Positions 4,761-45,036 of a stretch of DNA of 64,000 nucleotides are shown in pieces. A program made the position numbers and the translations under genes. Within the stretch, counting starts at the first letter, position 1. Each line of letters opens with the position of its first letter. Source of the stretch: Physcia stellaris (lineage: Eukaryota > Ascomycota > Lecanoromycetes > Caliciales > Physciaceae); assembly GCA_018902385.1 (NCBI GenBank), contig JABSSW010000023.1:496001-560000 (forward strand), in the 5' to 3' direction. The notes under the pieces were generated by a model. It did no database searches. It saw only the letters and a list, made by a program, of their open reading frames with translations, and was not told the DNA's origin.

Positions 4761-7191
4761 CTACAAATGTGGCACCTCTAAACTCGCCAGAAGTAAATTG
4801 ATTATGCTTACCACCCCTTCTCCTAGAATGAGCCCACTCGCAAGTACAATGACTGGCGTTTCTTCTCTCTGCCGGTAACTAGACCAATACCAATTGATCA
4901 ACCCTCCGATAGTCCGTGCAAGTGTAAAAGATGGGACGTTGTACATGCCTAGACCCATGTTAGACGTGATCGGTGAATCCGAGTCGAATCTAGACCTACC
5001 CACGGCAACCGCAATGCCTCCGGGCACCCATCCTATCCAACCTCTGTCTCTACCCCAAATCCTTACTGCTGTCAGGACTATCCAAACGGACCCAATAGCA
5101 AGTGCAAACTGCCACTATTCAATCAATGATCAGCCGATTTCTTAGCAAATAATTTTCACAGGACCCAGATTTGGAGAGCAAGAAGGGTTTTAGAAGATAC
5201 ATACTGCCATATCCGGCAACCCTTGACCCGTGACAAGGCGAGCAGTAAAGATCCACACATAGGCTGTGGGAACTTGGAACAATCCTCCTGGAACCTCGTA
5301 GACACTGGTGTATAGTTTGTAGACAACAGCACTCACTACCGCGCCTGCAGCACTTCCAATCATCTGTCCATAGAATTGAGCATTAGGCGCTGCTCCCATC
5401 AAATGGCCAGTCTTGAGGTCCTGCATCATGTCTCCAGCCTGCAGAGCACCCGACTCAGAAATAGCGCCCGCAAGCAGATTTATGGTAATCGCGTTGGGTG
5501 AGGACGACGGTGTAATGAGAGCGAAGAACAGTTGGGTCAGTTTGGATATTCCGGAAACAGGATTGAGGTCTGTCTCTCCAAGAGCTCGAACGCCCATCAA
5601 GGAAAGCAGCAGGGCGAGAAAGATGGCGAGAAGAATCGAGGCCACAGGGACAAGTTTACCAAATACCACCTTTACTGCCACAACACAGACGATGACAGAA
5701 ATTACAAAGAGTACCGAAATAGTCCGATTTGACACAAGGTGACTTGGTGGAGCATCAGGTTCCTCAAGCTCAGAATGCTTGGATACCGGTTCTATGGGGG
5801 ATATCATTGTATAGGCACCCTTCGAAGCGTTTTCGAGCCTGAATACTGACCTGAAGCCATGGTCCCGAACGTATGCGCGCAGCTGTGACAGATATACCGG
5901 ACCCTGGAAGATCAAAGGCCGTAAGACAAGCCAGCCGAGGCTTACTACCGAATCTGCGAGCATCACTGCTAAGCTAACCCACACAATCCAACCCTTACTA
6001 CCGTGCGTCCAGTCTTCGACTGGAGCCGGAGCCCAGCCTTTGTTCTTCGCGAGAGGGGACAGGACTCCCCACCCAAAGATGGCTCCGAGAAGCATGTGCA
6101 AGGTGGTAGCTGGACCCATGATGATGCCTTGCCCAACATAAGCAGGTGATGGGTTAAGTGTCCAAAGCCAATTTTGGGCTAAAGATAAGCCAAAGATAGG
6201 AATGTTGTGAACTTGCGGTATAAAATACGAGAAGATTGTCTGATATTGTCAGCGCCAGCGTGGGCACACTCTGAGAGTTAGTTGAACCCACGTAGAGCGC
6301 AGAGAGCGCAAAAGCATATATCAATTGCCTAATCTTGGCTTTCCACTCGTCTGCATGGTCATTCCCCATTGCCGAATTAGTAGTCTCTCCGAATAAAGAT
6401 GGGGTCTGTTTGGGACCGGCATTCTTCGGAGGAATCCCTGCGATGTTTGAGGTTGAAGACGTAAGGTCCTGACTACGTCTACTGTAGGTATCTAGGCCAT
6501 TTTCGACCTTACTTAATTGATTCTCTTGCGGCTTGTCATGTAGCACGCCTATCATGAGAGCAGTCGCTGTCCCGCTGGGAAACTTCAGTTTTTCACGGAT
6601 GATGACTTCCCGGCGGAGTGGAACTGCAATGACCATCCCGAAGAAGCACAGACCCAACGCCCACACGATGAGCTGCCAGGTACTCAAGACTATTGGACCA
6701 TTTTCTTCTGTTTTCATAAGAAAGTTCAGCGCAGGCACAACGCCGACAAAGCCGCAACCTAACGGCATTGTGCCGACTGCGCCTGCAACGGTCTGCACCA
6801 GTACGTTCTCTACGGGCGTGAAGGGATAATTGATCCATCTTGCGATGATTTTGAAATAAGCAAAACCGATCAGTGCAGCCGGCATGGCCATGCCGCTTAC
6901 CCATCCAGTTTGTAGGCCAAAATAGGTATTTGAAAAACATATGATGACACCGATGACAAGGCCTACCAGAACCCCCCGGAGGGTGAAGTTCTGCCCTTGG
7001 CTGTTCTGATCATCGAGGAAGCTCTGAGCTTCGCTGCGCCTGCGGGTGTTCTGGAGGAAGGTGGTGCTTTCATTTTCTTCCCCGCTGTCGGCATCTTCAA
7101 GTACAGATTCCTCGTCATTTATATCGTTTCTTTCTTCCACATCACGAGTGGTGGAATTGCCAGAGTGGGTGGATCCTCTGTCAGGTGCCAT
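4761..7191 (-). CDS. OPT-superfamily oligopeptide/metal-chelate transporter
   Basis: Three exons (6292-7191, 5205-6239, 4761-5108; introns 52 and 96 bp, both phase 0) give 760 residues, normal for the OPT family. A hydrophilic acidic N-terminus (about 70 residues) precedes many membrane segments. Conserved stretches include NTYFGLQTGWVSGMAMPAA, then PLGCGFVGVVPALNF, then KLKFPSGTATA, and SYFIPQVHNIPIFG across the first splice. The C-terminal half carries the GDMMQDLKTGHLMGAAP signature of the YSL-like branch. OPT proteins are proton-coupled plasma-membrane or vacuolar importers of small peptides, glutathione or metal chelates; the substrate cannot be told from sequence. The first intron (6240-6291) restores the frame into SYFIPQ, which supports the junction. 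Confidence 0.93.
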
Positions 7192-7700
7192 CTCCGTACG
7201 TGCAGATGATGTGCAAGCTGTTAGTATACAGGTTTATTTTACATGCTGAAGCTTGCAAAAGAGTAGTAAGCGAGGCAAGGTGATATTGCACCACTCGATT
7301 GTCGTCATTCGTCATTCCCTCAATCACGGGATCTCGGCTCGTTCGCTGTAGGCTTGGCGATAAGGGAGCATACGATTAGATTAGCGTCGCCTTGGCTACA
7401 TGTTTTATTACCTGGTGCACTACAGGTTACGGATACGGTACATTATTCAGGAAATGAACGAAGCCGCAAGAGTGAATTCCACACACGACCTTCATTATTC
7501 ACTCAGGTTGAAGATGAGTGCAGATTTCTGGCCATCTATGCTGGTACGTCCAGACATGTCTCCAGCGAAGGTTGCGCTTGTCATTGGATCTTCATCCACA
7601 GAAGTACGTACCATCCGATGTTAAAGGGAACATAATCAGTATCGTTCGTCATAATCTCTAATATTTATGCCACTCACATGCCAGCACTGATGCATGTGAC
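7192..7700. other. Intergenic between OPT and PRMT3-like genes
   Basis: About 0.5 kb: upstream region of the OPT gene and 3' flank of the PRMT3-like gene, both on the minus strand. No gene or repeat recognised. Confidence 0.5.
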
Positions 7701-9520
<1,820 letters not shown>

Positions 9521-34042: not shown

Positions 34043-35666
34043 TTATTTTGGTGACGAATCAGATCGTAGCGATGCCTTTGATTCTATCGATGGCATGGGC
34101 ATGATCTCATTTCGTGAATGTGGTCGGCTAAAGTTCCGCGTAGTCGGTGCGGGCCGTAATATCACCTGTGGTGGCTGCTGAGGTCGTGAGATTTGTGGTG
34201 ATGATGCAGGAGCCGATAGCAGACCGCCTATGTCCTCGAGTAAAGCGTGACTGCCTCGTCGGGTTTGATGTGTTGATGTTGGTGACAGAGGTTCATGTGT
34301 CATGTGTGGGATCTGTGTTTGGGACACTAATCGAGTCGGAGGGTGATGTGGGTGGGCTGGAGAATAAGGTTCATCAAGAAGGCCGCCCACATCAAAGAAT
34401 GACATGCGGCGTGGTGTAGGCATAGGGATTTCAGTTGGGCTAGGGGTTTTTCCAATCCTTTTTCGGCCGCTTCCAGATCGGTTTCGTCTGATTCTGCAGA
34501 TGGTCGAGACGGGAAATTCCAATTGGTGTTGAGCGCTATCTTTGGCGTTGTATGGGCTTGAGATGCGAGCGGCAGGGCCATTGGTGCTGGCCTTGGAATG
34601 GCCTCGCGGTCGTTTTCCAGATCCGGTCCTAACCGCATCCCAACGTCCCCAACTAGGTCGGCATCGCTGCCCCAGTTCCGTTGCGTTATCGTCCTTGTTC
34701 GTTGCTGAGGTGCTATGTCGAGGCTGCTGGTGCCGCCAGTGCTACCGAACCGGAATCGCTTCTTCTTTTCACCCCTGTCTCTAATAAATGATCCTAGCAC
34801 GACTGCATTAGAGACCGCAGCCGCGGCCAGGATTTCTAGCGAGGCTAGCAAAGAGCGAAATTGCTGGTCTGAGTGACGATCTATGACCCCAATAACCCGA
34901 TAGATTGTAATCGCGACTAATGTAAAGGAGAGACTGAAGAGTAGGACAAGGGAGATTTTGCGTTTGGTGGCCATGGCTGACTTGATAACGATGGGTATCG
35001 GAAAGACGATGAGGATAAGATCGGTGATGACATCGCTAGCACCCATTGTAATTAGTTGTGCGTGGCCTTGACGACATGCGGGCCCGGGATCTGGGATGAG
35101 CTGCCAGTAGCCGTAGAACGGCCGGCATTCGGCAAGAGTCGCGATAATCACCGCAACGAATGTCAAGGCGAGGAACCAACGTATGAATTGAAGACCAATC
35201 TCATATGACTTCTTCCACACCTGACTCGTCAAACGCTTGAGGAATTCGGAAACCGTGAATTTTGCTATCCAGAGGCTATAGCGATATCAGCAATGCGATG
35301 CATCCCGGGGCTGGCTCGAACTTACAAAGCCGCATACATGATCCTCGAAGCCAGTACGAGCTTGCTACCCACCTCTCTATGTTGTCTCTCCAATTGAGTA
35401 AGACCAGTAGTGGCGGTATTGTTCGTGCCCCATAACAAGACCAAGTGCACCAGAGCCATGCGAGCCAGCAGTGGTACGATACTCAAAGCCATGATTTTGT
35501 CTTCTCTGAACAGCTTCTCTGTCCTTACATATCGCCCGGATATGCGCACAATGATGATGGCCAATGCAAAACCGGTACACCACCATGACAACAGAAGGGT
35601 AGGATTGTTTGCGACGGCATTTTTAGCGGGTGGCGGTGTCGAATGCCAGTCTCGGGAAAGAAGCAT
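34043..35666 (-). CDS. Rhodopsin-domain (PTH11-like) fungal integral membrane protein, one apparent frameshift
   Basis: Two exons (35326-35666, 34043-35275; 50-bp intron, phase 2). As written, the main frame stops at 34327. If one base is added at an A5 run of the coding strand (T5 at 34447-34451 or 34459-34463), the frame continues to 34043 and gives 524 residues. That continuation contains the SFFDVGGLL motif conserved at the C-terminus of this family. The N-terminal half has about seven hydrophobic segments and the loop motif AECRPFYGYWQLIPDPGPAC. These proteins carry the fungal rhodopsin domain and resemble PTH11-type receptors. Ligand and function are unknown; no CFEM domain is present. 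The hydrophilic tail is probably cytoplasmic. Confidence 0.88.
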
Positions 35667-36366
35667 TGCTGACGCCCACCGACCTCCGCAGAGGGGTGAG
35701 CGTAGAGGGAGAAAGGTTCAGCAGGTGTATACCAAACACAAGCTTTTTTTGCTGGTCAAGTTTGATCTGCTCGGTGCCATGAAGCGGTGTGAGCTTGGAC
35801 CATGTTGTCAATTATCTCCGCCTAGGACCGAGACTCCAAGGAAAGATAGAGTATAGGTATGGCCAAGTCAAGAAAGCAGGCATGCGGCTTGAAAGGCGAG
35901 ACGATCGTAAGAAAGAGTTGAAGGGAGCTTAGAGCAAGAAGGAAGAAAAGCGAGGTGAGTACCACGCAAGGCATTACCATCGAAGCAAGGACAAGCGGTG
36001 ACGAGGCAAACGATAAGCAAAGCCCGAGTGGCTCATGCTGCTACTGGAAAAGGCCAGACATCGAGGGGAGCTGCAATCTGCACGAATGAAATGCCTCGAC
36101 GAGTCCCTGCCATGCCGCACAGCCTTCACACCACCTTCTCAGCCGACTCACCACTATGAATCGAGCATACTGAGACAGATACGACTCGATATCTGGGGTG
36201 GTCGGGTGTCTGGAAGCATAAGTAGGGGTATCGGAATTTGCTTCAAAAAACCCAGTTTCGCGCATTTCAACAACGTCAACCGGTGGGGGATCGAACGAAA
36301 TTCGTTGTTCAATTCGTCGCGCTAGCTGTTACCAAATCGGATTCGACGGTAAGGTAGAATTCTCGG
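35667..36366. other. Intergenic, left flank of the LINE island
   Basis: About 0.7 kb upstream of the rhodopsin-domain gene with ordinary base composition. The composition changes abruptly just after the 44-bp inverted repeat at 36367. No gene recognised. Confidence 0.5.
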
Positions 36367-36410
36367 GTGCAGAACTCTTGCAATTGCTTGGCACTCGTAG
36401 ATCTTTTTTA
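36367..36410 (+). repeat. Left 44-bp inverted repeat of the AT-rich island
   Basis: Identical over 44 bases to the reverse complement of 42523-42566. It starts gtgcagaactcttgcaattg and keeps normal base composition, including GG. The extreme AT-rich sequence begins within about 10 bases of its inner end. Confidence 0.95.
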
Positions 36411-36956
36411 TCTCAACAGATTCAAGATTCTCAGTCGATGTAACTCGACTTTAACAACATGATTTATTATTCAAACACGTTTGTTCGATAATATGATCGA
36501 TACAAAAATGAAATAGTAAATTTGATATCGAATGACAACGTATTGATCAAGTTGAAAATTTGACATGATTGATTGATTGATTGATTCATTAAACATTCGA
36601 AATCGATTTTAAGAATTCGTTATGCGATTAAAAACAATCGAGTCAATCATTTCTTAAAAAATTCTTGACTCTATACAGAATTATTTGCTTTTGATGTTTT
36701 GTTTTTTTATTCGAGCAAATCATTTCAAACATTTTTATTTTCATGATTTTTTTTCATTTTCACTTTGTACGAAAATTTTCAATTCAATGCATTTTTTTTG
36801 CAATCTCTATTTTTCGTCGTTCGTTACTGAAACTCGTAAATAGTCAATGAATTCGAATTTCTCGATAAGTTTTGTCGTTTTTGTCAAACTGATCGAATTG
36901 ATCAATACGTTCATCAATTTTATTTTTTTTCATTTCGCTTTTTTAATTTCGTCAAT

Positions 36957-39900
36957 TCATAAATTTTTGCGAAATTTTTTCAATTTTTTGCATTCGAAAA
37001 ACACGTGCTTGATCGTCTGTTTGCTACATATGCATGAGCACATGAAATTTTCGATTTGCTTTCTGTTGTATAGAAACGTTCGTAAATTTATTTTGATCGT
37101 GCGAAATTGTATTGTTATGACGCTGAGTTTTTTTGTGAGTTTTTCGTGTAATCGCAATATTGTTTTATTGAATTTCGATGTAATCTTGTACAAATTTTTT
37201 TTTTTTTGCAGTTTTTTCATTTTTGATTTCATTGTTGTTTTATCGATTTATTCATCACGATTTTGACGACGCTTTTCAGCATTTGCACGCTCGTTTGTTG
37301 TGTTTTGTGATCGATGTTCATTTTTTTTTTTTTTTCGTTTTTTCAATTTTCATTTCGTGATCTGTTTGATCGCAACGTTTGTCTGTTTATTGTTCACGAT
37401 ATCGATGTGAATCGAAACTCAATGCAATTTTATTTCAATACATTTGTTTCGCAATTCGTTGATCAATCAAATTATTCATTTCATCAAATACTGATCGAAA
37501 TTGATTTTCGAATTGTGCATCGTTTGAATTGTTGTTTGATTGTCGATGCATATGACGAATTTCGATTTTTTTGCAAATTTCAGAAACGAATGCAATCGCA
37601 TATTCAATGTTAAAACGATGTCATATAATTCAGCAAAATAAATCGTGTATGACGTAATGAATTTCAAATACGTTTTCGTTGTAGTAGATTTCGTTTCTGA
37701 AAATATCGCTGTTGCATTCATTTTGTCGTTAATGTCGCTTTTATTTGTGTATATGTAATTGATCGAATTCGTTGCTAATTGTATTTTGTGATATTTTTTT
37801 GTTTTTTTTTTGTTTTTCATGATACGTGCAATTGACGATGTTCATCATGACGATGCAACAAAAAATAAAATTTTTTTCATATCGTGTGTTTTGATGCTCG
37901 TTTTTTTTTCGAATTTATTTATTAGTTTTTTCAATGAATTGACGCTTTTCGATTTTCTGATGAAACGATCGCGTATAATCGTGTCGTATGTTGAATTTGT
38001 TATCAATTTCATTGCGAACGCATTGATGAATTTGTTCAAACGTAAATGCATGAACATTGAATTGATTTCGATGTTGAACGTTTTTTTCGAAATCATTTTG
38101 TATGTTTTCGTTATGATTTTTTCGATTTGATATTGAACGTTCGTTAATTTTTTCGTTATTTTTTTGTTGTGATTTTTTTTTTCGTCGACGTGTATCACAT
38201 CGAACATGCGTATGTGAATTGTGAAACGAAAATCGTTTGCATCATTTGTTTCATTTTCGAAAATTTAACATTTCATGTAATGTCGTCAAAACTGCGTAAT
38301 GTTTTTATTGATTTCAATGTTTTCGTTTTGTTTTGATTAATTTGTGCTTTTCAATTGAATTTTTCGTTCATTATGACGTTCAAATATTTTATTTTTTTGT
38401 TTGTTTTGACTTTTTGATTGAATTCAGAAAATAATATCGATTCGATGACGTTTGTTTTTTTTTTTCGACTGAAATAAATGAGTTGATATTTGAAAAATGC
38501 AAATTTCATTTCATGTTTCAATGTTCACGATACGCAAACTTTTTCGTGTGTTTTGATTATGATATCGTTGCATTTTTCGAAAATGTGATTTTTCGTCAGC
38601 ATTTCTATATCGTCGACAAATTCGCTCGCTAAAATATCTCTTTTCTTCAAAATTTTCAATAGAAATGCGTTGTAAAAAAAAAAAAAAATCGATGACATAA
38701 ATGAATTTTGTGAAATTTCTATGAATATTTCGAATCATTCGATATCGTATTCGTTCGTTTTCAATATCGTCATTTTATTGAACAGAAAAAAATCAATATA
38801 TCGTATCAATTTCTCGTCTAGACGTTTCATTTTGAAATTGTGTAACAATTTTAAACGCACTATATTATCGAAAACGTTCATCACGTCGAAAAGCATGATC
38901 ACGATTATCAATTTCTTGTTTCATGTCGAATGTATTCGTTTCATCATGTAATGTAATGCGTGTTTCGTAAACACGATTTTTTTGATTTCGAAATGTGTGC
39001 GTGACAACAAATCGTGTTTTTTCGTCAAAAAATTGATTCGTTTGATCAATATGAATTTCATGAACTTGCTTATAGTATTGAATAGAACTATTGATTTGTA
39101 CGAAATCGTCATTGAATAAATATTTTTGTTTGATTTACGTAATGCGATCGTGATCGATTTTCGAAAATATTTCGAACAATAATTTTCGTTCAAATTGACG
39201 TTGTATATACGTTGCAAATGTGATGCGATTATGTCATTTATTCATTTTCATATTTTATTGATTATGTCGTCGTCGTTTGAAATCTTGTTCGAGTTTTGCT
39301 TGATTATGATTTTCGTCATCTCGTGAAATTGTATGTTTTTCAGTTTCAAATTTTGATTGTATGTGATTTTTTGTATGTCGATTAGAACAATCGTAAACGA
39401 CGAAAAAAAAAATTTTTTCAGCAATATGAGTGTTTTTTTGATTGAGTCAATTTCGAACAGCATGAATAAATGATCGTGTAAAGTCGACAGACAAATTTTT
39501 TTTGAAATACGATTTCTTGTTCATTTGCATGTTTTTCACATGTTGTTTGATGTATCACATTTTTTTTCGATTTCTTTTTTGTATTGTGTTTTCATGATTT
39601 TAGAAATTACGTGACTCAAACGATTTTTCATTTTTTTGTACGATTTTCACAGGTTTTCGATTTTGTCGTTGTTTTGATATTTTTTTCTGATCGATTTGAT
39701 CGTTTTCGATGTTTGTTTGCATTTTTCGATGAATTCTGATTTCGCGTAAACATTCGATTTGCTGATCGAAATGATTGTTTCGATGATTGCTTGAATGATT
39801 TTTATCAATTTTTTGATTTGATCGTCGATTTTTTCTGTCTGATTGTTGTACGTGTTGTTGCTGAAAATGAACGTTTCATTATTCGTGATTTTCGTTTGCA

Positions 39901-40544
39901 ATTTTTCGCGTAATATATCGATATTTGTTTTCGTTCAAATTTTTGTGATTTTCGATTCGATCGTTTTCGTTCGCAAATTGAATATCGTTTTAATTGAACG
40001 ATGATTCGAATGATTGTTTATGCTTTCGTCGATGTCGATTTCGATCATACTGTTTCGAAACAACGATATTGCGTATGTGAAATCGATTGTGTTTTCGTTC
40101 GTGTGTTTATTTCATGTAATTAATTTTATTGATGTGATTTTTTTCAATTTATATTTTTTCATCGTGATTATGAATTCGTATGCGTTCGCGTCTGTTTTCA
40201 TATGTGATTTTTTTCAGTTGAAATGATGTAAATTAAAATTTTTCACGACAACGTGTTTTTCGTTGATTTTTTTTTGCATCGCGTTTTTGAGATTGAATAT
40301 CGCGTTGAAATTTTTGCTGTTTTTGCATAAATTATACATGTTGTGAATGTTGATAATTTTGTCGTTCGCGATTTGCATTTTTAACGAAATCAAATTTCTG
40401 TTGTGAAACGTGTGAAAATATTCGATTTTCGTTATTTTTTTGTTGACGAACATGCACATTTTCGTGATTGCATCGAGCATGTACAGTAATTCGAATTGTT
40501 GCGAAAATTTGTTGTTTGTCGTGAATTGAAATGAGTTTTTTCAT
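36957..40544 (-). pseudogene. LINE ORF2 remnant: endonuclease, reverse transcriptase, RNase H, Cys/His tail
   Basis: Broken minus-strand frames in several phases. Endonuclease near 40214-40480 ends KHVVVKNFNLHH, where intact relatives have a GDFN motif. Reverse transcriptase is at 38921-39217 (LFNTISKFMKFILIKR). A post-RT block is at 37845-38207 (MHLRLNKFINAFAMKL), RNase H at 37476-37820, and a Cys/His tail at 36957-37232. Gly and Pro expected in the family are consistently replaced. Stops and frame changes separate the pieces. Confidence 0.88.
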
Positions 40545-41191
40545 GATTTTTGCATGATCAATATATCGAATTTTTCTATGTTTTTTGTTTCGAACAGCGA
40601 TATCATGATTTGAGTTTTCGAATTGTTGACGTTGTATTGTAATATCGATAATATGTCGTTTTTTAACATTTTTTCACTGTTTTGAATTTCGTATTTCGAT
40701 TCGTGACGTCAATTAAAAATGTTCTGATGATCGTGATCGAAAAACTTTTTTTTTTTCAAATTTTTCATATTTTTTTTTGATCGTTGATGTTTTTTTGTTT
40801 TTGATCGATGACGTCGATTTATCGTTTTTTTTATTTCGAAATTTTTGTGAGTTTGAAAACAATTGCGATAACATCATTGATTCGATCGACAAAATCATTT
40901 TCACGTGAAATTTATGTTCGTTTTTTTGCGTTTGTTGATTTCGTCTAAATAAATTTTTTTTTTTTGTGACTTTTCGATGTTTCGTCGTTGTATTTCTTTT
41001 AATTGATTGAATTTTTTCGCAACGATTGTCGTTTCTGAATTTTCGTGAATTGTATTCATCGATTTCGAAATCGTTATCATTTTGTTGACGACGATGTATT
41101 GTTGTTTTTGAATTTCGAATTTCGCTGACGTAATCGAGCGTTGATACATGATTTTTTCGATTTTTTTTTGTTTTTCTTTGCATTTTTTTTT

Positions 41192-42154
41192 TCATGAATT
41201 ATGTGCTTTTTCACATACACAGCATTTGATTTTGTAATTTTTTGCACATTTTTTTTTTTTTGTAACATACGTATTTGCGCAATAATCGCATCGTTTTTCT
41301 TTTGTGCATTGAATTGTATTGTGTTCGTGATGATGACATTTATAACATTGAATAATTTTGCATGTTTTGTTGAACATTGAGCAAGCTTTCAACTTCTTTT
41401 CGATCATGATGTTGTTGTTCAGCATATTGTTATTCATTTTTGAAATAATGATTTCAATAATCAGAAAATGATATTGTTGCATTGTCGTGAATTTGTTTTT
41501 TCAAAACACGTACAAAATTTTCATTTTTCTTAATTTTTTCACGTTTTCGTTTTTTTTTCTGATTTTACGCATCGTCGTTTTTTTATTTTTTGTCGTTGTT
41601 AAATCGAATTTTTTGATTTTTATTTCGCTAATCATGATCGCGTAAATCGAAACGATCGCTTTCGTTTTTTTATCGAGTATCGTCGTTTTTGCATTGTTGT
41701 TTCGCAATTTTTTTGTTTTTTTTGCGTTTATCGCGTGTATCGCGAAATCATCATTCGAAAATTTTTTGATCGCTCGAATATTTTTGATTTGTATGTTTTT
41801 TTTCGTAATGCACGTGTTGATTTCATTGACGATACGTTTGATTTCGTATTGATTCAATTGTTGTTTTTTTTCGTTGTCGTTTAAACGTATTATGATTTCG
41901 ATGTTTTTGTTTGCGATAATTTTGAGCGTTGAAAAAGTCGCAACGACGATTGCTCAATTGCGTGAATTCGTTTTGATCGTGAAAAAAAAAAAAAAATTGA
42001 AAAAAATGATTATTTTTGTAATTTCATGACGAATCATGACATTGTTTTTTTTCATTTTCGCGTGTTCTTTGTTGAACTGAACAATCATTTTGTTTATTGC
42101 GTTCATCATGTTTCTTTGAATGAATGCAAATTGCGTGTTTTCAAAATATGTCAC
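41192..42154 (-). pseudogene. LINE ORF1 (gag-like) remnant with zinc knuckles
   Basis: Minus-strand fragments at 41954-42154, 41501-41857 and 41192-41482. The last has CYKCHHHEHNTIQC (CX2CX4HX4C), then CDYCANTY and a further CCVCEKAHNS block. This is the series of zinc knuckles found at the C-terminus of Tad-type ORF1 proteins. The middle fragment (residues such as FAIHAINAKKTKKLRNN) matches the RNA-binding region before the knuckles. Not functional as written. Confidence 0.8.
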
Positions 42155-42522
42155 GACGATTGTAAATCAATTTTCAATGATTTTTGATGATGATTTTTCT
42201 TTTGCTCGAACGAATTCTCGACATTTTTTGATGTTTTTCAGCAGCATTGTTTTTTGCTCGTGAACGTTTTCGTTCGTTTGATTTAACAACGATCATGTTA
42301 TTTTTTTCATCATTATCAATTGTTCATTGATCGATGCGCAAAAATTCGACGATTCGAATGACGCGTTAATCAGATTAATATCACGTTTCGTTGTTGAGTT
42401 ATTTCAAAAATTTGGTTTGTAACATAAATTGTTTTTTTTTCGAAAATTTGACATGGTCAAATGCCAGACTTTTTTCGTTTCAGGGTTAGGTTTGATATGA
42501 AATCTTGGTGAGGAACTCGGGG

Positions 42523-42566
42523 TAAAAAAGATCTACGAGTGCCAAGCAATTGCAAGAGTTCTGCAC
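42523..42566 (-). repeat. Right 44-bp inverted repeat of the AT-rich island
   Basis: Reverse complement of 36367-36410 with no mismatch. About 110 bp of ordinary sequence (42411-42522) lies between it and the AT-rich part. The outside flanks share only TCGG (36363-36366 and 42568-42571, the second offset by one base), so a target-site duplication is doubtful. Confidence 0.95.
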
Positions 42567-43354
42567 ATCGGAAAACTAGCGCGAGCAGATACCGGCCATT
42601 ACCTTAAGGTACTCATGATTGCATTCCTTCTTTAACATCTGACCTTTCCCGTAATGCGATACACGTGTTAGTGGTCTTTTCAGCGTATCGAATGATTTCT
42701 GAGGAGTACGAGTGCCCGAATTTAGATATCTCGTCCGTACCTACTCACCAAGGACTTAGACCAGTAGGCGTTATTGTTTAATATAGATATGTCGCCTGCT
42801 TAGTGGATGAAAGAAGCGTAAAAGGTGTTTCACATGGGTACCCTCATGATGTTAATAAAGCAAGTCAAGTAATGGCATTCGGCATGGTTCTAATGGTAAG
42901 ATGGGGTTTCCTGATAGTCCAACTGAGCCCAGCTTATAGTAAGAAAGGAAAGTCAAAATACCTTTTACATGCTTTGTCGTCCTGGCTTCCCATAGACTAA
43001 TCGTTATCAAGATCAAATTACAAAACCCCATTCATGCTTTGTACGAACAAGGAAAGTCGTTTCTGCCAAAGAGAAGTCATAAGATAGCACAGCTTGTTGT
43101 CCCGTGTATATGGCAATAATATGACCACAGTCATGTAAAGCACCACGGAGGACAACTACTACCTTTATTTCTCCTCATCCACTGTCGCAACCTTGCGAGA
43201 GCACATTTGAAGTCAGCGTCATTAATGTCATTCTAGAGTCTACCAAAGTACTACTCTGTACAGCTTCAAAAGGACTCAATAAGGATGCAGCGAATAGCTG
43301 TAATTACTCAAGTCATCCGAACCACTTAGATCTGAGGTCCACATGGATCCATGA
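42567..43354. other. Intergenic, right flank of the LINE island
   Basis: About 0.8 kb of ordinary composition. A TACCTTAAGGTA palindrome at 42600-42611 is the same 12-mer seen upstream of PEX7. No gene recognised. Confidence 0.5.
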
Positions 43355-45036
43355 TCAGCCATCATTCAAAAGTCCGACAACCCACTCAGGGATTCGCTCT
43401 ACACCTTCACCCCGGATCGCGCTTACGGGTACCGCGGTAAGTGGTCCTTTCCAGGATGTCTTCTTGCCGCTTGGATGATCGACTGTATTTTCGGCAACCG
43501 CATTCAGATACGCCTGCAGATATGCAAAGTTATTTTGGGTGCCATCGAGATCGGCTTTGGTCGCCACTACGAACCAAGGTTTAGTTGAGATAGGTGCCAT
43601 GCATAATGGCGGAAGCGTTTGCGGCGAAGAGGATCTGATGATGACCCCCCCATGATCCATTGCAATTGCATCCTTTTGTGACGGCTCACTCAACACAGAG
43701 CTGCCGAAGGCTTTCCAATCAACAATTTTGCCGGCGCTGTTGAGATTGGTCTCGGTGTCTTTAGCGATCTCAAACTCGCGAAGCTCCTGCCACAAATTTT
43801 TGAGTGCCTGGACTATGTCCTCAGAACTCAAATCAATCACAAAGGCCAACACCTGAGCTCGCTCCACATGGCGAAGGAAGCCATGCCCCAGCCCACGGTC
43901 CAAGTGAGCATCAGGTACCAAACCGGGGATGTCCGCAACTGAAATTCGTGTCCTGGGCTCTCCCCTTGTGGTGTATGATTTTAGTCGTGGTTTGCCCTTA
44001 TTATCGTCTAAGACCACGGTTCCCATGTTCGGTTGTAAAGTCGTAAAAGCCCAGTTTCCCACCCTCGTTTGGCTTCTACTTAGTGCACGTAAGAGAGTGC
44101 TTTTCCCTGCATTTGGCATTCCAACAAAGCCTACATCCGCAAGTAGCTTGAGCTCCAACTCGAGATTTACGGAAAGGCCGCTGTCGCCCTTGGTGGCGAT
44201 TTTAGGTCGAGGAACGGATTGAGAGACAAAGTGAGGGTTGCCTAGCCCACCCATTGCGCCTGCAGCAAGCAGCATGGGGCTGTCCATGGGTTCCGACAAG
44301 TCTAGGGTGATTGGCGGCTGTGGTTGTGCCATTGTCAAATTTGACTTTCTCGCGCGAGGAAGCGGAGGAATCCCCGAGCTTACGAACTCTGATGGTGTGG
44401 CTGATGGATGTAGAATCCATTTGTCTCTCCTCCAGGTACTTGGAATTGGATCTTCAGCGCCCCTGGGTGTACCAGCTTCAAGCATCCTACTCTCTTCGTC
44501 TTCCACAAGCGGATCGTGTCTTGATAATTCCCTGACCACTGTCCCAACAGGTACTTGGATCAACACGTCGCCGCCACGCTGGCCACCTTTTCCTTTTCCT
44601 TGACCGTTGTGCCCCCTACCCGCTTTGATAGTTCCACGTCGAGCTATTTTGTGCAGACTTGTCTCGCTACTTACAGCTTGGATGTAGATACTTCCTCCAT
44701 TGCCCCCATCACCTCCGTTTGGAGGACCCGCTGCAATGAACTTTTCGCGCAGGAAGGAGACACATCCATTGCCGCCTCCCCCGCAGAGACAGTCAGACTG
44801 CATTTGTCGGCGAAGACAGTTCGACCGTACTCTGCTGGAGGTGGATTTAAGTGTGATGAGGTTACGGGTCGTGCAGGATAAAATCTGTCTTGCGTCGAAG
44901 CGTGCGTAGATTGGTAGTATCGAGGGGAACTTGGCGCTACTGCTGGTCCTAGGAGTTTACGTGGTGCGCCACGGCTAAGTTGTAAACAAGGGTAGAGAAA
45001 AGGCAATGATGTGCCTTGGAAACAGGCCATGGTCAT
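43355..45036 (-). CDS. MTG2: Mitochondrial Obg-family GTPase Mtg2, one apparent frameshift
   Basis: About 560 residues if one base is added in the C5 run at 44778-44782 (G5 on the coding strand). Without it, the N-terminal frame (mitochondrial presequence, then LNPPPAEYGRTVFADKCSLT) is cut off from the Obg fold (GGGGNGCVSFLREKFIAAGP). The GTPase domain has GMPNAGKSTLL (G1), VADIPGLV (G3) and ATKADLD (G4). The Gly-rich Obg fold shows GPPNGGDGGNGGSI and KAGRGHNGQGKGKGGQRGG. Two low-conservation insertions enlarge it relative to bacterial Obg. Mtg2 associates with the mitochondrial large ribosomal subunit and is needed for its assembly. The start is the ATG at 45036 or 45030. It is divergent from the E2-like gene (212 bp). 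Confidence 0.92.

Follow-up and report, generated by a model that had tools for sequence, protein, structure and literature searches.

Transposons of the lichen fungus Physcia stellaris decay by C-to-T change at CpC and CpT, with CpA largely spared

A stretch of 64,000 nucleotides from the lichen fungus Physcia stellaris (GenBank assembly GCA_018902385.1, contig JABSSW010000023.1, positions 496,001 to 560,000 of the forward strand), hereafter the window, carries a copy of a long interspersed nuclear element (LINE, a non-LTR retrotransposon) in which, on both strands, almost every CpC has become TpC and almost every CpT has become TpT. Judging from sequence comparisons, transposons of this fungus are very probably inactivated by a repeat-directed C-to-T process of the type known as repeat-induced point mutation (RIP), here with the target preference inverted (CpC > CpT >> CpA, CpG). 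The window LINE is best read as one of many copies so inactivated. The changes are C-to-T only, on both strands, and depend on the 3′ neighbour; they are graded among copies and find their limits at repeat ends. They affect several unrelated classes of transposons, while unique neighbours and intact copies are of ordinary composition.

The composition of the element is striking in itself. Between positions 36411 and 42410 a dinucleotide count finds no CC and a single GG (at 39652), with a C+G content of 28.6%. This agrees with the original prediction, made by a model from the letters alone, which had read no CC, one GG at 39652-39653 and roughly 30% C plus G. It had also reckoned that more than a hundred of each dinucleotide should occur by chance; in 500 shuffles CC and GG together averaged 249.8 (sd 13.6, minimum 212), against one observed. 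CT (102, observed/expected 0.29) and AG (63, 0.26) are depleted as well, as is TA (279, 0.40). AT (739, 1.06), CA (292, 1.51), TG (534, 1.21) and CG (364, 3.0) are not. A sample (37441-37560) came out exactly as described, with C followed by A nine times, by G seven times, by T once and never by C, and with three TA and 20 AT. Before and after this stretch the window is ordinary, with observed/expected ratios of 0.97 and 0.92 for CC and of 0.97 and 0.90 for GG. From ordinary window DNA to the LINE, (CC+GG)/(TC+GA) falls from 0.83 to 0.002, and (CT+AG)/(TT+AA) from 0.96 to 0.077.

The standard RIP indices behave quite differently. In the decayed LINE, TpA/ApT is 0.38 and (CpA+TpG)/(ApC+GpT) is 1.39. 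The thresholds for a positive score are above 1.15 for the former and at most 0.75 for the latter (PMC7882544; here and below, published work is cited from the accessible portions of the papers), so that the element scores as RIP-negative.

Searching the genome (about 44 Mb, 147 contigs) with part of the LINE gave 40 matches, 29 of which were used whole or in part: the window copy, 20 close copies, six diverged copies, a copy designated C30 and the related copy L060. The other 11 were left out. These copies form a graded series of decay. C30 (GC about 45%), L060 and L028 retain many CC and GG; seven of the 20 close copies have none over their aligned part, and CT drops as low as 4 in 2.8 kb. 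Taking L028 as the reference, we aligned 19 copies, the window LINE and 18 others, several of them covered only partly; L016 was excluded because of a foreign insertion. Counted as sites by copies, C-to-T change amounts to 1230/1283 at CpC (95.9%) and 7281/8300 at CpT (87.7%), against 1130/12001 at CpA (9.4%) and 340/10746 at CpG (3.2%), with transversions at 0.1-0.8%. The choice of reference matters little. With C30 the figures are 95, 88, 10 and 7% for CpC, CpT, CpA and CpG (transversions 1.0-1.2%), and between L060 and the window they are 97/97, 268/337, 17/439 and 10/402. The diverged copies (L029, which includes ordinary DNA, and L031-L035) served for composition and for comparison with C30, outside these context counts.

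The original prediction had proposed C-to-T change on both strands wherever C precedes a pyrimidine, and tabulation by 3′ base against the least decayed copies bears this out: it is at CpC and CpT, and not mainly at CpA, that the changes fall. That CpA/TpG and CpG are retained holds for their abundance; the transitions counted above show that they are not wholly spared. In five lightly decayed copies the two strands are hit alike (0.784 and 0.777), and the 5′ base has little effect, be it at CpC (ACC.92, CCC.89, GCC.92, TCC.95) or at CpT (ACT.77, GCT.67, TCT.81), with TCA (.04) and TCG (.02) hardly mutated. Between L060 and L028 there are 287 differences at aligned positions: 279 are C/T differences at CpC or CpT, two lie at CpA and none at CpG; the remaining six are C/T differences next to gaps, and there is no transversion. 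Decay at CpA comes late: it amounts to as much as 19% where decay has gone furthest, and CpA sites account for roughly half the differences when two saturated copies are compared (194/371; 68/123). A cytosine would be struck first when C follows, next when T follows, and scarcely ever when A or G does.

The same preference is found in repeats unrelated to LINEs, namely copia and DDE elements, both in aligned pairs and in stop codon tallies. Ten stretches were aligned in all; the more diverged ones show it more weakly, and one pair does not show it. From the intact copia element L042 (GC 0.52) to its decayed relative L047, over 3.4 kb, change affects 429/458 CpC, 321/416 CpT, 26/479 CpA and 23/422 CpG sites. 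Between the DDE elements L053 and L050 the figures are 41/42, 122/158, 25/304 and 10/297. The consequence for coding capacity is visible in the frames of the L042-L047 pair, where 22 of 24 TGG codons became TGA, two TAA and none TAG, while CAA was kept at 15 of 15 positions and CGA at 11 of 12. A change of the CpC type turns TGG into TGA, and this accounts for the excess of TGA among the in-frame stops of the transposon matches scored (TGA 695, TAA 137, TAG 6); RIP of the CpA type would be expected to give TAG and TAA, from TGG, CAG and CAA. By domain, TGA, TAA and TAG number 250, 33 and 3 in RVT_1 (150 matches scored of 527 candidates), 401, 101 and 3 in RVT_2 (137 matches, with 150 scored of 165 candidates) and 44, 3 and 0 in DDE_1 (10 matches).

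Mutation at CpY (Y, pyrimidine) climbs across the first 100-150 bp inside the ends of the LINE. At the 3′ end it is 0.46 at 30-60 bp, 0.67-0.69 at 60-150 bp and 0.91 at 150-250 bp. At the 5′ end it affects 16/27 sites in the last 30 bp and 0/9 at 30-60 bp, then reaches 0.80 at 60-100 bp and about 0.9 beyond. In the 50 bp just outside, CC and GG together number.079 per bp in 20 left flanks and.071 in nine right flanks, with.077-.117 further out. Decay is confined to repeated DNA and spares the unique neighbours. A stretch free of CC and GG does continue outside three copies, for about 210 bp to the left of L020, at least 817 bp to the left of L022 and about 900 bp to the right of L023. This is not a spread of decay beyond the repeat for the last two: their flanks (7185-8001 and 6830-7732) belong to other decayed, high-copy repeats without CC or GG, with 40 and 16 matches listed, respectively. 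The L020 flank, a short stretch, has weak and partly palindromic repeat matches (67-69% over its length).

The window LINE interrupted a miniature inverted-repeat transposable element (MITE) of which an uninterrupted copy, L055, survives elsewhere as the empty site. To the left of the insertion, 36360-36565 is 98.5% identical to L055 (three mismatches in 206 bp; at two of these L055 has CpC where the window has TpC); to the right, 42442-42574 is likewise 98.5% identical (two mismatches in 133 bp, both a C or G lost in L055 and kept in the window). The original prediction was right that a decayed LINE is present, and wrong about its extent, given as 36411-42410. Positions 36411-36565 also lack CC and GG, and might have been taken for decay spreading into the left flank; they belong to the MITE and match the empty site. 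They are no evidence of LINE decay, since low CC and GG is common to other copies of this MITE (five of the five examined). The family, with a length of about 312 bp and some 18 other genome copies at 75-99% identity, is mostly spared. Among the 390 pairwise differences of six copies, CpC is mildly over-represented (81), and 139 are transversions. The length threshold for RIP is a few hundred bp.

If the process is of the RIP type, it would, like that of Neurospora, strike duplicated sequences during the sexual cycle and would involve a methyltransferase of the RID/DIM-2 class that reads the +1 base as a pyrimidine. Such genes had been suggested as a thing to look for, and a PF00145 search of the genome finds three: L039, similar to DIM-2, and L038 and L040, both of the RID class. 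We assign these classes from motifs and from a tree, not from comparison with the Neurospora proteins. L040 has FFSDAHT after PPCQ; by BLAST it matches a P. stellaris protein at 98%, and by eye the exon parts common to both are in agreement. L038 (850-2506, 514 aa) has SFSPAQ in place of FFSDAHT, and its frame is intact once two introns, placed by eye, are removed. In a tree of 45 sequences (43 picked by hand from 194 listed, plus L038 and L039) the L038 clade comprises 16, with support of 100/99; they are mostly metagenome proteins, and Heterodermia is included. The candidate enzymes are therefore threefold: a re-tuned RID (L040), the diverged paralogue (L038) or the DIM-2-like protein (L039). 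That a lineage of lichen fungi moved its genome defence to a CpC/CpT-specific mutator, by way of a paralogue of the L038 clade or of a re-tuned RID, is a further proposal, to which we would give somewhat less than an even chance. Catalysis by RID-class proteins is listed as undetected in vitro in a review table (PMC13297926).

Several observations weigh against a RIP-type process with an inverted target. A single genome, that of P. stellaris, was analysed. The copia elements L045 and L046 share 96.8% identity along 3.2 kb, keep long open frames (1257 and 1501 aa) and display neither decay nor bias, so that some long repeats escape. The contrast is weaker in pairs that have diverged further, although CpC and CpT stay ahead: from L044 to L047, in two pieces, change affects 12/18 CpC, 79/131 CpT, 50/253 CpA and 60/244 CpG sites. 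L013 is decayed far more on one strand, over about 3.7 kb (p=4e-14), the pattern that one strand-specific event would leave; yet among 19 copies the bias is strong in this one only, and moderate in one more (L011, p=0.0007). Finally, Phialocephala subalpina has two RID-like genes and nevertheless RIP of the CpA type (PMC5148876). A second RID gene alone does not, then, predict CpY targeting, which weakens RID duplication as the sole explanation.

Among other ways to account for these data, the one that deserves most attention is slow chemistry. DIM-2-like methylation of CpC and CpT in heterochromatin, followed by gradual deamination of 5-methylcytosine during vegetative growth, would predict the same spectrum of C-to-T changes only, without RIP proper. 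A DIM-2-like gene (L039) is present, and DIM-2 of Neurospora is said to methylate cytosine in all CpN contexts, with CpT preferred (PMC13297926). We consider this unlikely, if worth keeping in mind, on several grounds. Heterochromatin spreads, whereas decay falls off at the ends of the LINE, and the MITE around it is still 98.5% identical to an empty site. The 287 differences between L060 and L028, with no transversion among them, mean that the changes were fast relative to ordinary mutation. The strong imbalance between strands in one copy, along about 3.7 kb, is also more easily reconciled with discrete events than with gradual drift. DNA damage unrelated to methyltransferases is a far weaker contender. 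The CC context recalls the targets of APOBEC3G and the dipyrimidines hit by ultraviolet (UV) light, and lichens are exposed to the sun. APOBEC-like deaminases and UV damage depend on the 5′ base, though, and here TCA and TCG are left almost untouched, whereas ACC, GCC, ACT and GCT are mutated at the high rates given above. UV damage, moreover, would not stop at transposon ends. We reject both on the 5′ context, and hold their involvement to be very improbable.

Two more prosaic explanations have even less in their favour. An artefact of sequencing or assembly at methylated motifs comes to mind when Nanopore reads are used, as they were for this assembly; Illumina coverage of about 30-fold was used as well (PMC7513301). 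Conversion of some 90% of the sites, in repeats only, differing from copy to copy and producing TGA stops out of TGG, is no error pattern, and we set the chance of an artefact at next to nothing. As for a transposon family that never had CC and GG, its copies simply inheriting the lack, the original prediction had named this as the finding that would undo it. Nineteen of the 20 close copies are indeed poor in CC and GG over their aligned part (the twentieth, L016, is confounded by its foreign insertion). It is, however, ruled out for practical purposes, and is the least credible of all: C30, L060, L028 and the intact copia copy L042 have CC and GG at ordinary or intermediate levels, unrelated copia and DDE elements decay alike, and the copies differ among themselves at CpT sites. 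This brings us back to a repeat-directed, RIP-type process as much the best account.

How, then, does this process relate to RIP as it is known? The original prediction called the decay non-RIP-like, which is too strong: the target dinucleotide aside, the features tested are RIP-like. With RID-dependent RIP of the Neurospora type it shares C:G to T:A change only, on both strands, in repeats only and ending where they end, a graded saturation, stop codons in transposons, and the presence of genes of the RID and DIM-2 classes. It is on these grounds that we call it so. The difference lies in the target. Classical RIP has CpA as its main target and makes TpA rise; in the P. stellaris LINE CpA is changed about ten times less often than CpC, and TpA/ApT is low. 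RIPCAL, which defines indices for CpC and CpT, names CpA as the principal target for most fungi; applied to the Tad1 repeats of Neurospora it gave more changes at CpT than at CpA (PMC2621366), so that a CpT target by itself does not set a process apart from RIP. Botrytis, Sclerotinia and Magnaporthe, with a RID-class gene present, likewise have CpT-biased RIP (PMC4352252), for which the authors suggest a motif in RID. In their survey of ten genomes (Amselem et al. 2015) signatures are listed for CpA, CpT and CpG, none for CpC, and the species with CpT all have CpA too, whereas in P. stellaris CpC leads and CpA is nearly spared.

Other lichen fungi also have AT-rich or RIP-marked repeats. Those of Endocarpon pusillum have classical indices of 1.47 and 0.70 (PMC3897900), and Cladonia rangiformis, with homologues of RID and DIM-2, was scored for RIP by GC content, the accessible text naming no dinucleotide (PMC12542154). 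In rusts, Microbotryum and Rhizoctonia, C-to-T decay tied to transposons or methylation has been described with an emphasis on CpG, the best preserved context in P. stellaris. In Table 2 of the Rhizoctonia paper the shortest spacing is that of CpC changes (214 bp, with 370 bp for CpG; PMC4014442); these are heterozygous single-nucleotide polymorphisms in genes and repeats alike, unlike the repeat-limited decay seen here. Double changes of CpC to TpT accompany classical CpA RIP in Monilinia (PMC8959702). A kingdom-wide screen of 2025 has RIP-like defences share a preference for CpA; its 130 species with strong recent signatures fall into four classes, Lecanoromycetes not being one of them (PMC12543289). 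The accessible text of the P. stellaris genome paper (PMC7513301) does not mention RIP, and we found no report of CpC-led repeat decay in the searchable literature, which leaves out most subscription papers, so that absence of an earlier report is unproven.

The practical consequence is plain. RIP is usually scored across fungi by indices based on CpA, standard tests would miss decay at CpC and CpT, and a strongly mutated genome can pass for RIP-free in a survey. If there is indeed a lineage with a CpC/CpT mutator, a whole class of RIP has been overlooked because the common indices assume CpA, and nature would have evolved a methyltransferase-type enzyme that reads a 3′ pyrimidine. Destruction of CpC and CpT with CpA kept shows that the choice of target can evolve, and makes this fungus a case, set up by nature, in which to ask what determines the +1 base specificity of RID-class enzymes.

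The identity of the element as a LINE rests on homology and on the structure of its insertion. The element codes on the minus strand; an open frame for reverse transcriptase survives in the related copy L060 (PF00078, 8.7e-17), and target site duplications are present (Table 1); similar ones were seen by eye at copies L009, L015 and L028. Of eight matches to the endonuclease family PF14529, four lie by their coordinates inside copies of this family (C16, C2:1117313, C24:430498 and C24:169812, the last below the cut-off). Neither the window's own 160-aa frame nor the 406-aa frame of C30 has a Pfam match.

Table 1. Coordinates of the LINE insertion and of the interrupted MITE in the window
Feature	Start	End	Strand	Basis
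Decayed LINE (non-LTR retrotransposon) copy	36566	42440	-	Ends shared with full-length copies, within a few bases
Target site duplication, left, 12 bp	36554	36565		Same 12 bp at 42442-42453; single in the empty site L055
Target site duplication, right, 12 bp	42442	42453		Repeats 36554-36565; single in the empty site L055
MITE, left part cut by the LINE; largely outside the decay	36367	36565		Match to the empty-site copy L055
MITE, right part cut by the LINE	42442	42566		Match to the empty-site copy L055
MITE terminal inverted repeat, left arm, 44 bp, perfect	36367	36410		Inverted-repeat match with the right arm
MITE terminal inverted repeat, right arm, 44 bp, perfect	42523	42566		Inverted-repeat match with the left arm

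The neighbouring genes encode a GTPase of the GTP1/OBG type (43355-44803, minus strand) and a fungal rhodopsin-domain protein (34327-35232, minus strand).

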